From NCBI GenBank assembly GCA_934273135.1, contig CAKQSU010000092.1:1-5385 (forward strand): DNA of 5,385 nt. The letters run 5' to 3'. Under the pieces are notes generated by a model, which was not told the origin of the DNA, made no database searches, and was given only the letters and a program-made list of their open reading frames with translations. The position numbers and the translations under genes were made by a program. Position 1 is the stretch's first letter. Each line of letters starts with the position of its first letter. This document shows positions 1,004 through 5,385 of the stretch, piece by piece. This DNA comes from an uncultured Clostridia bacterium (GTDB lineage Bacteria; Bacillota; Clostridia; Christensenellales; Borkfalkiaceae).

Positions 1004-1022
1004 AAGGCGGAATGTAATCTTG
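1004..1022 (+). promoter_or_regulatory. Ribosome binding site deciding the TTG start of ftsK
   Basis: AAGGCGG (1004-1010) lies nine bases before a TTG at 1020-1022, a good Shine-Dalgarno distance. The frame is closed upstream by TAA at 993-995 and offers no ATG or GTG between that stop and 1020. An ATG at 1012-1014 is in another frame, is followed immediately by TAA, and is only one base from the Shine-Dalgarno sequence, so it is unlikely to be used efficiently. The next in-frame residues (GKGVSSKNGKKAG) form a plausible basic cytoplasmic N-terminus ahead of the first membrane segment. Confidence 0.5.
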
Positions 1023-4000
1023 GGTAAAGGGGTAAGCTCTAAAAACGGGAAAAAAGCGGGTTCGTTTGCGAAAGAAGTTTTCGGAATGGCTCTCATATTG
1101 TTTGCCGTGCTGGCATTTTTGTGCCTTGTCACGGGCAACGCTCTCGTGTATCCGCTGGGCGGCGGCGTTCAGTCGTTTCTGCTCGGCTCTTTCGGCGTGT
1201 ACTCTTTTATTTTTCTTCTGCATACGGGGCTTTTCGGGTTTGCCCTCGTATCGGGGCGCAGCGCGATTCCCGAAGATAAGCGGCTCACGTCGTTTTTAAT
1301 CTCGCTTGCCGTCGCCGTTATTTTTCTCATAGTCCATCTTGCCGTCGGCTTTGACAATTCCTTGTCCGTCGGCGAACATATGTCGTCCTCCTTTGCTAAG
1401 GGCGAAGGCGGTTTTTCGACGACTACCCCGGGCGGCGCGATAGCTACTCTTCTTACCGCTCCCGTTGCGAAAATCGCTTCGTACGCCGGCGCGTTCGTTA
1501 TATTTTCGATAGCTTTACTCGTCGTCGTCGCGATTTTGTTCAGGGGCAAATTCAATTTCGAAAAAAAGGAAGCTAAGCCCAAAATCCCCGCGCCCGAAAA
1601 GCAAAGGGCAGACAAAGGCTCGTTTACGGGCGCAGACACGGCGGAAGAAGCAAAAGTCGAAAAGACCGCAAAAACTGCGAAAAACGAGGAAAAAGAAGTC
1701 CCTCCTCACGGCTACTTTTTAGACGAGGAATCCCCGTTTACGTTTAAAACCAAGCGTGAAGCCGCAAGCGGCGTTCCGTCGAGGCTCAGCGTTTTCGACG
1801 GCAGATTCGAATTTAAGAATCCCGCGCAAAACGGTTTGTCGAGCCGCGAACCCGTTCGCCCGGACGTGAAAAGAAGTTATTCCGAAGATTACACGGGCAA
1901 AAAAGGCGAAGCTTCGTCTTATACGCCGCCTAAATCGGCATTGGGCAGGAGCGGCGCGGACGTTTCGGACGTTATCCGCGACGGCAAACCCGTCGGCAAA
2001 GTCAACCTTGACAACATAGGCGTTTCGCCCATTTTCGGCGACACGACCAAGGACCGTTCGCGCGAGAGCGAGGATATCGATTTTTCCCGCCGCTCGGCTT
2101 ACGTCGTCAACGAAACTTCCCGCGGGGTACCCGTAGTGGACAGAACGGCGCGAGATAATTACGGAAAAGAGTCCGACGCGCGTTCCGCCGATTACGGCGT
2201 TTACGACAGAACAAGAGATGGCTCGGCGAAAAGAACGCCAGAAGCTTCCTCGTATTCCCGCACATCTTCTTTCGATACCGATACTCGTCGCGATTTTACT
2301 CGCCCCGCAGCGGACGAGAGAGTGGGCGAAACGAGAACGACTCGCTCCGTCGAACGCGAAACCACGGAAATTAAAACGCCGGAGGACGATTTTTCTTCTA
2401 CGAGAAAGCCCGTCACGCCGAGCTTTTCTTCGCCTGCTCGCGATACTTCCGCTTTAAGGGCCGATACGCATGTCGCGACAAGCAGAACTTCTTTCACGGA
2501 AAGCGCGCCGACGGAAGAAAAAAAGGAACCGTCTTTTACGCCGAGAGTGGAAACTTCGCCGATGGGCGGGGCTTCTTCGGCTTCTCCCGCAAGACCCGTT
2601 CAGCCCGCCGCTCCGTCGCGCCCGGCGGCAACGAACGTCGCAAACGGCGTCGCTGCTTCGGCTAAACCTAAATATACAATCCCGGACGACGGCTCGCTTT
2701 CTATCGAGGACATGCCCGTCAATTATAGGTACAAGGCTCCGCCGCTCGACTTGTTGAAAGAATACGGCGCAGACCCGCAGGCTTTGCTTGTCGAAAACGA
2801 AAAACGCAAAGCCAATGCCGAAACGATAGTCAGGGTTATCAAGCAGTCTACGGGCATTGACGTTACCGTCGAAAACATAATCGCGGGACCTTCCGTTACT
2901 CGTTACGACATTGCTATCCCGGACGACGTAAGCCCGAAGGACGTGTTCCACGCGAAAGGCGATTTGGCGTTCCGTCTGAAGGTTTCGGACCTTAGAATGT
3001 ACAACGTTCCTAACGAATCGCTTATCGGTATAGAAGTCGCAAACAAAGTCGTTTCTATCGTCGGCTTAAAGTCCGTGCTTTCTTCTCCCGAATACAAGAC
3101 TTTAAAGAAGAAAGGCTTGCAGTTCGTTTTAGGCAAAAACATTCTCGGCAAATCGGTTGTTTTAGACCTTGCCAGAATGCCGCACCTTTTGGTGAGCGGC
3201 GCAACCGGTATGGGTAAGTCCGTATGCCTAAGTTCGCTTTTAATCAGCCTTTTGTATCGCTACTCTCCCGAAGAAATGCGCCTTATCATAATCGACCCTA
3301 AGGTCGTTGAATTCAATATGTACAAGGGCATACCGCACCTTGTGTTCAACGACATAATCGGTATAGACAAGCGCGCGCTCGCCGTTCTCGAATGGGCGGT
3401 CGGCGAAATGGAAACAAGATATCAATTCCTTGCCGAAAACGGTTGCAAGGATATCGGCGAATACAACGCCATGATAGACACCACCAAGGTTAAGCGCGTG
3501 CCGTATATCGTTATCTTGATAGACGAGTTTGCCGACCTTGTAATGGCGGACGAAAAGAACAAAAAGAAGATTGAAAACTACATCGGCAGAATCGCGCAAA
3601 AGGCGCGCGCCGCGGGTATTTCGCTTATACTTGCCACTCAACGCCCGTCGGTCAACGTCATCTCCGGTTCCATCAAAACCAACGTTCCGTCGCGTATCTG
3701 CTTCAAAACGGCAACTTCTATGGACAGCCGAGTCGTTATCGACGAAAACGGCGCGGAAAAGCTCGTTTGCAAGGGCGATTGCTTCTACAAAACGAGCGAC
3801 GAGGGCTTTTTACAGCGCGCGCAAGGCGCGTTTGTCGACAACCCCGAAATCCGTTCCGTTCTCGACTATATAAGAAAGAACAACAAGAGTTACTATGACA
3901 ATAAGGTCCTCGAACTCATCAACGCTTACGCTACGGCGGACGAGGGCGGCGACGACGAAGATTCCGCGCCGCAAACCCCGGGCGGCGAAGTGGACGAGGT

Positions 4001-4220
4001 TATGAAAAAGGCTTTGCGCATAGTAATCGACCAACGCCGCGTTTCCAACTCCGCATTAAGAACAAAGCTCGCTATCGGTTACAACCGCGCCGCGACTATC
4101 GTCGAATGGATGGCGAAAATGAAGTATGTTTCCGCTTCCTTAGACAATAAAGACCGCACCGTTTTGATAACTCGCGAACAGTATGAGGAGTTGTACGGCG
4201 AATTTGTCGAAGATTTTTGA
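1020..4220 (+). CDS. ftsK: FtsK/SpoIIIE family DNA translocase
   Basis: A 1066-residue membrane-anchored, hexameric ATP-driven pump that moves chromosomal DNA through the division or sporulation septum. Four hydrophobic segments lie at about residues 22-44, 50-78, 89-110 and 139-174. Residues 175 to about 555 are a charged, Ser/Thr/Pro/Arg-rich linker with little predicted fold. The alpha domain begins near 560. The motor has Walker A GATGMGKS (727-734), Walker B IVILIDE (830-836, acidic D835 and E836) and the family motif ATQRPSVNVISG (872-883). The C-terminal gamma winged helix occupies about 990-1055 (IGYNRAAT at 1019-1026). B. subtilis SpoIIIE is under 800 residues; the excess here is mostly linker. 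Odd points are Met731 in the P-loop, ENGAEKLVCKGDCF (909-922) where relatives usually have a GGAE-LLG-GDM pattern, and lost arginines in gamma. Whether it serves division, sporulation or both cannot be told. The family assignment is secure. Confidence 0.5.
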   Translation: MGKGVSSKNGKKAGSFAKEVFGMALILFAVLAFLCLVTGNALVYPLGGGVQSFLLGSFGVYSFIFLLHTGLFGFALVSGRSAIPEDKRLTSFLISLAVAVIFLIVHLAVGFDNSLSVGEHMSSSFAKGEGGFSTTTPGGAIATLLTAPVAKIASYAGAFVIFSIALLVVVAILFRGKFNFEKKEAKPKIPAPEKQRADKGSFTGADTAEEAKVEKTAKTAKNEEKEVPPHGYFLDEESPFTFKTKREAASGVPSRLSVFDGRFEFKNPAQNGLSSREPVRPDVKRSYSEDYTGKKGEASSYTPPKSALGRSGADVSDVIRDGKPVGKVNLDNIGVSPIFGDTTKDRSRESEDIDFSRRSAYVVNETSRGVPVVDRTARDNYGKESDARSADYGVYDRTRDGSAKRTPEASSYSRTSSFDTDTRRDFTRPAADERVGETRTTRSVERETTEIKTPEDDFSSTRKPVTPSFSSPARDTSALRADTHVATSRTSFTESAPTEEKKEPSFTPRVETSPMGGASSASPARPVQPAAPSRPAATNVANGVAASAKPKYTIPDDGSLSIEDMPVNYRYKAPPLDLLKEYGADPQALLVENEKRKANAETIVRVIKQSTGIDVTVENIIAGPSVTRYDIAIPDDVSPKDVFHAKGDLAFRLKVSDLRMYNVPNESLIGIEVANKVVSIVGLKSVLSSPEYKTLKKKGLQFVLGKNILGKSVVLDLARMPHLLVSGATGMGKSVCLSSLLISLLYRYSPEEMRLIIIDPKVVEFNMYKGIPHLVFNDIIGIDKRALAVLEWAVGEMETRYQFLAENGCKDIGEYNAMIDTTKVKRVPYIVILIDEFADLVMADEKNKKKIENYIGRIAQKARAAGISLILATQRPSVNVISGSIKTNVPSRICFKTATSMDSRVVIDENGAEKLVCKGDCFYKTSDEGFLQRAQGAFVDNPEIRSVLDYIRKNNKSYYDNKVLELINAYATADEGGDDEDSAPQTPGGEVDEVMKKALRIVIDQRRVSNSALRTKLAIGYNRAATIVEWMAKMKYVSASLDNKDRTVLITREQYEELYGEFVEDF

Positions 4221-4352
4221 TTTTTAAGGCGTATAGCGGCACATATACGGGCTACGTGCTTAAACGCCGCTTTAGTTACGTACGTTAGAGTACGCGCCCT
4301 TCGACACTCACAGCCCTGTTGCGGCAATGCTACGCACTCTGAAGCCTAAAAA
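4221..4352. repeat. Putative ~130-bp non-coding repeat element with imperfect terminal inverted repeats
   Basis: Directly after the ftsK stop, TTTTTAAGGC (4221-4230) can pair with GCCTAAAAA (4344-4352): nine base pairs with one bulged A. Inside are further local pairings: GTATA with TATAC (4231-4235/4244-4248), AGCGGC with GCCGCT (4235-4240/4266-4271), and CGTAC with GTACG (4279-4283/4290-4294). Some of these exclude each other. No credible gene lies here on either strand. The shape fits a small MITE-like element or a structured RNA, and the sequence looks like dispersed repeats I associate with Clostridia, but this is inference from one copy. Its position abutting the stop codon suggests either insertion there or use as the 3' end of the ftsK transcript. 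Confidence 0.5.
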
Positions 4353-4371
4353 GGAAAGTCGTCGCACCGCG

Positions 4372-4398
4372 CCATCCCACCCACACCAACCTTCCCCC
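4372..4398 (-). other. G-rich run with G-quadruplex potential on the minus strand
   Basis: Read on the minus strand, this C-rich stretch has successive G tracts (GGGGG, GG, GG, GGG, GGG, GG) separated by one to three bases. The segment at 4377-4391 reads GGTTGGTGTGGGTGG, one base different from the well-known thrombin-binding aptamer, GGTTGGTGTGGTTGG, which folds as a two-tetrad quadruplex. The structure could form in single-stranded DNA or in a minus-strand transcript. Its right edge overlaps the left arm of the following hairpin. Confidence 0.5.
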
Positions 4399-4454
4399 GT
4401 TTGCGAAGCAAGGTGGGGAAGGGGGACCGCCGTCGCGTCGGCGGTGGATGAGGG
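4390..4454. repeat. GC-rich double-hairpin (REP-like) element ending in GGATGAGGG
   Basis: The first hairpin pairs CCTTCCCC (4390-4397) with GGGGAAGG (4415-4422), with an inner TTGC/GCAA stem (4401-4404/4408-4411) closed by a GAA loop. The second pairs ACCGCCG (4426-4432) with CGGCGGT (4439-4445) around a 6-base loop. GGATGAGGG (4446-4454) follows immediately. A CCTTCCCC-type hairpin, a variable GC hairpin and a GGATGAGG tail form an architecture I recall from dispersed intergenic repeats of Clostridia. I cannot confirm copy number from one window. There is no T tract, so it is not a standard terminator. Confidence 0.5.
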
Positions 4455-4557
4455 GATATTGAAGTAAATCGATATTTGCGCCAAAGGCGCAATCGATATG
4501 CCGCAAAGCGGCGTGATATTTGCCTATCGGCAATCGATATTCGCACATAAAGTGCGA
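4455..4557. repeat. Tandem array of four short hairpins separated by YGATAT linkers
   Basis: Five GATAT copies start at 4455, 4471, 4495, 4515 and 4536. The last four are each followed by a perfect stem: TTGCGCC/GGCGCAA (4476-4482/4486-4492, loop AAA); GCCGC/GCGGC (4500-4504/4508-4512, loop AAA, extendable by an A-T and a T-G pair); TTGCC/GGCAA (4520-4524/4529-4533, loop TATC); TCGCAC/GTGCGA (4541-4546/4552-4557, loop ATAAA). The unit spacing is 20-24 bases. The linkers read CGATAT or TGATAT. The stems differ in sequence and length, yet each is self-complementary. There is no coding signal and no promoter I can support. The array would be present in any ftsK-rimO read-through transcript. Confidence 0.5.
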
Positions 4558-4606
4558 GCGAAAGCGGATGAGGGAATAATAAAAATCCAAAATAAAAAAA
4601 CAGTAA

Positions 4607-4624
4607 AGCGTGAAAAAACACGCT
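4607..4624. promoter_or_regulatory. Hairpin with A6 loop in the rimO leader
   Basis: AGCGTG (4607-4612) pairs perfectly with CACGCT (4619-4624) around a loop of six A, ending 17 bases before the rimO ATG. On the + strand no T tract follows, so it is not a terminator in that direction. On the minus strand it is followed by a T-rich run, giving a weak terminator-like shape, but no minus-strand gene is present. It may influence translation of rimO or protect its messenger; this is inference. Confidence 0.5.
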
Positions 4625-4641
4625 GAACAGACCACAAACAC

Positions 4642-5385
4642 ATGACTACACACAAAAAAAAGGTCGGACTCGTGTCGCTCGGTTGCGACAAAAACAGGGT
4701 TGACGGCGAAAAACTTTTATATGAGGTTGCAAAGCACTACGACATAACTTCTTCGATAGAGGACGCAAACGTGCTTATTGTGAACACTTGCGCGTTTTTA
4801 GGCTCTGCGCGAGAAGAGGCGATAAACACCGTTTTCGAGTATTTGCCGTACAAGCAAGACGGCAACCTTGAAAAAATAATAATGACGGGTTGCCTTCCGC
4901 AAAAATTCGTCGGCGACATGTTCGACGATTTTACCGAGGTGGACGCGTTTTTAGGCACTAAGGACGGCTCGCTCATCACGCAGGCTATCGACGAAGTTTA
5001 TAAGGGCAAAAGACTAAACCTCGTCGGCAAAGGGAAAGAACTCGGCTGTTCGAGGATAGTCACCACCCCGGGGCATTTTGCTTATCTTAAAATTTCCGAC
5101 GGTTGCAACAACCACTGTACATACTGCCTTATCCCTAAAATTCGAGGGAAATTCGTTTCCCGCCCGATAGAGAGCCTCCTAGATGAGGCAAAGGATTTGG
5201 GCGAGGTGGAAGAACTTATTCTCGTCGCGCAGGACACCACTCGTTACGGCGAGGATTTGTACGGCGAAATAAGGCTCGTTGAACTTATCCGCGCGCTTTC
5301 CGCGCTCGAAACGGTCAAACATATTCGCTTAATGTACTGTTATCCCGAGCTTATCGACGATAAGCTTATCGCAGAGATAAGGGAC
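4642..5385 (+). CDS. rimO: Ribosomal protein uS12 methylthiotransferase RimO, N-terminal 248 residues (3' truncated)
   Basis: The frame opens at ATG 4642 and stays open to the window end. RimO is a cytoplasmic radical-SAM enzyme that adds a methylthio group to an aspartate of ribosomal protein S12. The N-terminal UPF0004 domain shows the family start VSLGCDKNRVD and its three cluster cysteines, Cys15, Cys50 (NTCAF) and Cys84 (GCLPQ). The radical-SAM motif is CNNHCTYC, with Cys155, Cys159 and Cys162, followed by IRGKFVSRPIE. LVAQDTTRYGEDLYG and MYCYPE are RimO-like rather than MiaB-like. The full protein should be about 430-450 residues, so the end of the radical-SAM domain and the TRAM domain are missing. 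The start is the first ATG after an in-frame TGA at 4624-4626. The leader has no Shine-Dalgarno sequence but is A-rich. Placement downstream of ftsK is common in Bacillota, usually with a shorter gap. Confidence 0.5.
   Translation, partial: MTTHKKKVGLVSLGCDKNRVDGEKLLYEVAKHYDITSSIEDANVLIVNTCAFLGSAREEAINTVFEYLPYKQDGNLEKIIMTGCLPQKFVGDMFDDFTEVDAFLGTKDGSLITQAIDEVYKGKRLNLVGKGKELGCSRIVTTPGHFAYLKISDGCNNHCTYCLIPKIRGKFVSRPIESLLDEAKDLGEVEELILVAQDTTRYGEDLYGEIRLVELIRALSALETVKHIRLMYCYPELIDDKLIAEIRD

Follow-up and report, generated by a model that had tools for sequence, protein, structure and literature searches.

Proteins of the S23 family (23S-rRNA-IVP, PF05635) and the intervening sequences of 23S rRNA that carry their genes have been known for more than 25 years with no agreed function or origin, and both are called unclear in one account of them (PMC4990558). 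The intervening sequences are presented as short selfish elements with inverted repeats (PMC4990558, PMC11270868). S23/IVP genes have also been listed near cas genes and CRISPR arrays (PMC3936711, PMC10910872). S23 genes outside rRNA have been described as encoding Avd-like proteins, and the resemblance of PF05635 to Avd is noted in the same source (PMC10053308). A search of the open-access literature turned up no paper that connects hairpin arrays with S23 genes lying outside rRNA. Avd works on nucleic acid in diversity-generating retroelements (DGRs), and we know of no cleavage activity of S23 proteins.

Two further systems share features with the DNA described here. Gut-1 (Rfam RF01706) is a curated non-coding RNA family, an orphan RNA in which three hairpins stand in a row with a GUGAAAU linker, and its description assigns it to the human gut only (Weinberg et al. 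2010, PMC2864571). REP/BIME elements combine a GTAG or CGTC tag with a hairpin. They are dispersed, intergenic and present as inverted pairs, and their gene-bearing form, the REPtron, has inverted copies (PMC3733652, PMC2817692). Frequent GT pairing is reported for GTAG REPs (PMC3733652).

The hairpin array between ftsK and rimO

The window, a stretch of 5,385 nt from an uncultured Clostridia bacterium, contains two forward-strand ORFs which we take to be ftsK (1020–4220) and the 5′ part of rimO (4642–5385, running off the window end). The spacer between them is 421 nt long (4221–4641) and harbors an array of four perfect hairpins on the forward strand (4470–4557), each directly 3′ of a YGATAT tag. 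Tag 1 (CGATAT, 4470–4475) precedes the 7-bp stem TTGCGCC/GGCGCAA with the loop AAA (4476–4492), and tag 2 (CGATAT, 4494–4499) precedes the 5-bp stem GCCGC/GCGGC, also with the loop AAA (4500–4512). Tag 3 (TGATAT, 4514–4519) is followed by the 5-bp stem TTGCC/GGCAA with the loop TATC (4520–4533) and tag 4 (CGATAT, 4535–4540) by the 6-bp stem TCGCAC/GTGCGA with the loop ATAAA (4541–4557). All four tags are exact matches. Arrays were recognised by at least three hairpins behind one constant tag. The segment 4301–4700 scored 4 with the tag GATAT, whereas 2000 dinucleotide shuffles of it scored 0–3, with 3 reached twice. In segments of 400 nt stepped along the whole window, a score of at least 3 occurred in 3/50, the three lying over the array. 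The four hairpins, with their tags, stems and loops, are thus confirmed as an earlier note on this DNA had read them.

The span given in that note, 4455–4557, includes the array proper; its first part has to be set aside, as the GATAT at 4455 belongs to a GGATAT that ends a different repeat and has no local hairpin behind it. This repeat, of the form CCTCATCC–variable hairpin–CCCCCTTCCCC, occupies 4390–4455 on the minus strand, and a like pattern is present in 16 copies in 480 kb of G001, the nearest relative. Its end, GGATGAGGG, is met again past the array, at 4566–4574, and the array may therefore lie within a copy of this second repeat or between two of them. When the flanks were checked for a target-site duplication, GGATGAGGG was found on both sides, yet it belongs to this other repeat. 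The flank GATATTGA (4454–4463) can pair with the fourth tag (4533–4543), enclosing hairpins 1–3, and this pairing resembles the centre-first tag pairing of the S23 elements described below.

The window array has a single arm, the inverted second arm being absent between 4221 and 4641. Single-arm copies are known too from locus L147 of genome G051, where a single-arm TGATAT array occurs twice at 7750–8700, about 600 nt apart, within a larger repeat. No S23 gene was found in the window, and two long minus-strand ORFs over the array had no NCBIfam match. The full-length Gut-1 model matched 4467–4545 on the forward strand with 30.9 bits, below the gathering score of 50 (E 1.3e-4 in a 181-nt search). 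The earlier note knew of no named family of this form, which was nearly right, Gut-1 being the nearest. A CRISPR array was rejected in view of the self-complementary variable parts and of a constant part about 6 nt long.

Dispersal in relatives and sites of insertion

A RimO search returned 153 related stretches, and 80 loci were fetched and searched by tblastn with FtsK and RimO. FtsK lies upstream of RimO on the same strand in 65/80 loci; in 50 of these, the two genes overlap or are separated by at most 100 nt, compared with 421 nt in the window. The YGATAT tag was absent from the relatives' ftsK–rimO spacers of 1–699 nt. By this sequence comparison, the window spacer is an insertion relative to related bacteria. 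Searched with blastn against the fetched loci of relatives, the spacer 4221–4641 gave no match at E ≤ 0.01, so the kinship of the window array with the arrays described next rests on tag, architecture and covariance model.

RimO of G001 is 68% identical to that of the window. The pattern YGATAT-N-YGATAT-N-YGATAT gave 57 partly overlapping matches in G001, a few of them other repeats or chance; the reversed control gave 0. The 480 kb examined in this genome are the regions fetched around these matches and are not a random sample; they contain 39 arrays with 94 internal units, and a copy at the ends of two contigs (L117, L129) may have entered the count twice. Perfect stems of 4 bp or more are present in 87/94 units, compared with 7.2% for shuffled letters (1351/18800). 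When whole regions were searched on both strands with a looser tag, 82/209 intervals remained unfolded; as these intervals include chance tag pairs outside arrays, the stricter count was used. The earlier note held that the stems are maintained or regenerated as pairs, and named an array occurring only here, or stems decaying without compensation, as outcomes that would speak against it. The first of these is excluded by the matches in G001, and the second is not the rule there, 7/94 units being broken. As judged from tag and architecture, the window array is one copy of a dispersed family, and the note's view of stems kept or remade as pairs is borne out.

The G001 arrays contain 27 distinct stems, several of which reappear in new orders. 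In many copies one end is conserved and an inverted second arm is present, with tags that are the reverse complement of GTGAAAT, ATGATTT and similar sequences. Across 34 copies, one homologous pair is GC in 19, TA in 13 and broken in 2, and at the next hairpin whole stems are swapped between constant flanks. ORFs of at least 80 aa are not overlapped by 35/41 clusters examined, and two of the six overlapping clusters were chance matches in coding sequence, dropped later. By eye, G001 copies show a T-rich left flank. Other dispersed repeats, GTCATTCTGAGCG-like and GACTTAGAAACAAG-like, occur near arrays at L119, L130 and L123 of this genome.

A second site of insertion is the 3′ end of a gene that is presumably rlmD. 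A GCGATAT array is found there in G073, with an S23 gene, and in G001, without one; the two arrays have the same tag and a like right end. In G035, the site is occupied by a GTGATAT array with S23. Among 55 genomes with an rlmD match, 30 loci were fetched and read by eye, and the site is occupied in 3/30 (3/28 readable). Of the remaining loci, one has a short run of two hairpins, two are at a contig edge and one shows about 90 nt, while the others look empty. Presence and absence at the same site were thus found among relatives for both ftsK–rimO and rlmD, the relatives compared being distant ones. In the outer hairpin at rlmD, the final codons of the gene form the first arm, and the reverse complement of these codons forms the second. 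The host sequence is not the same in G001 and G073, and each has a second arm to match; the match is imperfect in G035. Either the target serves as template for an inverted copy, or the element brings both arms and restores the gene end.

Arrays upstream of one clade of S23 genes

The first lead to S23 was an S23-like gene beside an array in three genomes. PF05635 matches are present in 15/61 genomes around G001 and in 112/391 genomes of its class. GATAT-array counts, with the control subtracted, are higher in the 15 genomes with S23 than in the 46 without (one-sided p = 0.006). Arrays without an S23 match occur in several draft genomes (G031, G038, G051, G059); named records are for the most part MAGs, and completeness figures are lacking for the G genomes.

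Arrays were scored in the 400 nt upstream of S23 genes as hairpins behind one 5-mer tag, with a strict hairpin detector that at times picked a wrong tag. Set A comprised 28 S23 genes of near relatives, set C 40 S23 genes sampled class-wide as consecutive rows of the PF05635 listing, and set B the 30 loci of the best class-wide PF05635 matches. A score of at least 3 was obtained for 22/28 genes in A, 23/40 in C and 1/30 in B, compared with 13/524 control ORFs, 5/56 intergenic gaps of at least 250 nt and 1/340 shuffles. At a score of at least 4, the values were 17/28, 12/40 and 0/30, compared with 1/524, 1/56 and 0/340, respectively. In sets A and C together, 23/68 genes fell below the score. 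The low array count of set B first seemed to break the link; 28/30 of its genes lie outside the array clade described below.

The usual organisation, read by eye, starts with a long outer hairpin followed by three to four tagged hairpins and a centre able to base-pair with the first tag and stem. Next come about three hairpins with reverse-complement tags, and then a promoter-like site, a ribosome site and the S23 gene. In L248, the promoter-like site is TTGAAA-17-TATAAT, with the arrays upstream of it. GATAT tags are present in the S23-bearing elements of G033, G035 and G073. The 700 nt upstream of S23 include a tRNA gene on the same strand in 12/28 genes of set A, 5/40 of set C and 0/30 of set B (0/624 control ORFs, taken from rimO neighbourhoods only and therefore narrow). 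Of the 17/68 tRNA-adjacent genes in A and C, L223 and L247 are array-less and outside the clade. At L142 (G033, 9500–10800), the S23 gene stands between two array blocks, and the 3′ end of tRNA-Glu together with its terminator is repeated on both sides.

In a tree of 98 S23 proteins, built on 122 columns with many forks consequently unresolved, arrays by score belong to 46/54 proteins of one clade (SH-aLRT 89) and to 0/44 outside it. The array label changes 7 times on the tree, compared with 33 in shuffles. All eight low-scoring clade members show tagged hairpins by eye. The clade boundary is imperfect, since L166, inside it, owes its score to tRNA arms and is array-less by eye, and L178, outside it on a long branch, has an apparent tagged array. 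Tags go with sub-clades as read by eye (TTAGC, TGATG/TGAAG, TACAT, ATATCAC).

All three S23 proteins tested matched TIGR02436, and a profile of eight S23 proteins matched PDB 2rld. The AlphaFold model (pLDDT 94.6) superposed on 2rld with a TM score of up to 0.87, on 2gsc with 0.81–0.88 and on Avd (4dwl) with 0.80, though with E 0.39 for the latter. The protein is predicted to be a four-helix bundle resembling Avd. A DGR-like scheme, prompted by the Avd fold, was rejected: G001 has no reverse transcriptase match, and only 10/61 genomes have one. The S23/IVP family, as PF05635 and TIGR02436, is common to these elements and the intervening sequences of 23S rRNA. The elements differ from the latter in that they carry tagged hairpins and lie between protein genes, as the window array does between ftsK and rimO, or next to tRNA genes, rather than inside rRNA.

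Upkeep of the stems and nature of the element

Among arrays of relatives, those upstream of S23 in L161 and L167 score above the Gut-1 gathering threshold. In 20 S23 loci scanned, two matches were above and seven below the gathering score, and 11 loci had nothing at E ≤ 0.1. Counted by genome, matches above the gathering score were found in 9/14 genomes chosen as array-rich or near G001 and in 0/14 control genomes. Base pairing was assessed in 303 tag-linked stems of relatives, some perhaps counted under two tags, with each mismatch allowed in turn. GT accounted for 17/1820 pairs, AC for 44, TC for 44 and GA for 27, while 48 tRNAs of the same loci had GT in 53/576 pairs and AC in 6. As array stems were admitted only if they fold without wobble, their GT count is biased downward against that of tRNA; mismatch classes compared with one another are treated symmetrically and are unaffected by this. 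No G-U excess was found in array stems on either strand. Near-perfect stems with no such excess suggest upkeep as DNA and not as RNA, though few G-U pairs could also reflect young stems.

These data bear most directly on the possibility that the hairpins act as RNA, as a Gut-1-like structured ncRNA or mRNA element serving in stability, read-through or as a protein sponge. The membership of Gut-1 in a curated family, its sub-threshold match in the window and the many relatives above threshold speak for it, as do RNA folds more stable than shuffles (−49.2 kcal/mol for 4440–4570, z −3.83). We nevertheless hold it to be unlikely, given the missing G-U excess and the replacement of whole stems at a fixed homologous position. 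Orientation is not biased either: at 26 sites in G001 with co-directional neighbours, 15 arrays are antisense and 11 sense (p = 0.56). Where the promoter-like site stands between the arrays and S23, as in L248, an mRNA starting there would not include the arrays. Selection on the RNA, which the earlier note had offered as one candidate, is disfavoured accordingly; the Gut-1-like portion belongs here to arrays that are longer, inverted and variable in tag, and that are tied to S23. Another candidate of that note, template switching in which one arm is rewritten from its partner, would fit both the near-perfect Watson-Crick stems and the outer hairpin at rlmD. Such switching between quasi-palindrome arms, together with unequal recombination at tags, might even suffice as a passive mutational process with no dedicated protein or transposition. 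It would account for near-perfect Watson-Crick stems, for stems recurring in new orders and for the outer hairpin at rlmD, whose second arm in G001 and G073 is reverse-complementary to the host sequence although that sequence differs between the two. It leaves unexplained the constant tags, the concentration of arrays in one S23 clade and their spread to about 39 places in the G001 regions fetched, and as a sufficient explanation it appears improbable.

Dispersal could instead be due to a RAYT (HUH Y1) transposase acting on a REP/BIME element, as the earlier note had proposed among its candidates. A tag joined to a hairpin, dispersal in intergenic regions, inverted pairs and a gene-bearing form all follow the logic of REPtrons. 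This explanation has already been largely refuted and is very improbable. G001 is the relative richest in arrays and has no match to Pfam Y1_Tnp (PF01797); across 61 genomes, the GATAT-array counts are not higher in the 20 with a match (one-sided p = 0.74). The tags are GATAT, GAAAT, GCTAAAT and others, YGATAT in the window, and not GTAG or CGTC; many unrelated stems occur per genome; and most S23 forms seen have arrays 5′ of the gene and not on both sides as in REPtrons. GT pairing, frequent in GTAG REPs according to PMC3733652, is not in excess in the arrays. The arrays could also be independent selfish repeats with S23 as cargo, or sequences upstream of S23 that control it. Arrays without S23 and S23 genes without arrays both exist, and the arrays stand just 5′ of the S23 promoter-like site. 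The association is, however, nearly confined to one clade and nearly complete inside it despite different tags, and elsewhere S23 is carried by selfish intervening sequences (PMC4990558), which makes a cargo or control relationship decidedly unlikely.

With moderate confidence, the window array is probably a gene-less, one-armed copy of an S23-associated and probably mobile hairpin-array element. The array itself, its dispersal in relatives and its absence from the same spacer there were observed directly. The same is true of the link, both physical and phylogenetic, between such arrays and one S23 clade, and of the shared tags, the shared covariance model (Gut-1) and the near-perfect Watson-Crick stems. 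Fuller arrays adjoin S23 genes in relatives, so the row in the window is likely a gene-less copy; it is classed as no more than likely because the window has no S23 gene. The interpretation in the earlier note is partly supported, the S23 link not being visible from the window sequence. In the gene-carrying form, seen in related bacteria, two inverted hairpin arrays stand immediately 5′ of an S23-family gene (23S-rRNA-IVP, Avd fold). The unit of recognition may be the constant tag, GATAT or a variant, together with an extruded single-strand hairpin, and its binder, by analogy to Avd, may be an S23 oligomer. Gene-less arrays might be used by the S23 protein in trans. The element would move, and its stems would be renewed as DNA, either by copying one arm from the other or by exchanging whole hairpin units at tags.

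A wider reading is possible but doubtful, namely an undescribed class of mobile DNA in which S23/Avd-fold proteins with no nuclease or polymerase of their own spread tagged-hairpin arrays and the stems are re-made as DNA. Such elements would enter next to tRNA genes, at the 3′ ends of genes and in further spacers. Each stem would be re-made by copying one arm, even from target sequence, and could thus change freely yet stay perfectly paired. The intervening sequences of 23S rRNA would then be an offshoot of the same principle.

One S23 clade is now tied to a defined candidate substrate, namely hairpins that follow a constant tag, with different tags in different sub-clades. This offers a direct binding assay and a predicted element with gene-carrying and gene-less forms. 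Stems that are seemingly renewed as DNA in nature are also a warning for covariation-based RNA discovery.

Some S23 genes of the neighbouring, array-less clades have features of their own. Short direct repeats, AATGCAAAATGCAGA-like or AATTGAAAATGGAAAGTTGAA-like, are often found upstream of them (L156, L162, L215, L216, L217, L221, L235, L242); they recall the heptamer repeats reported before S23 in an rRNA intervening sequence (PMC4990558). The only rRNA-borne S23 gene sampled, L203 of G308, has an upstream sequence resembling 23S rRNA and lies outside the array clade. Seven S23 copies are listed for G308, four of them with equal score, as expected for copies of rRNA operons.
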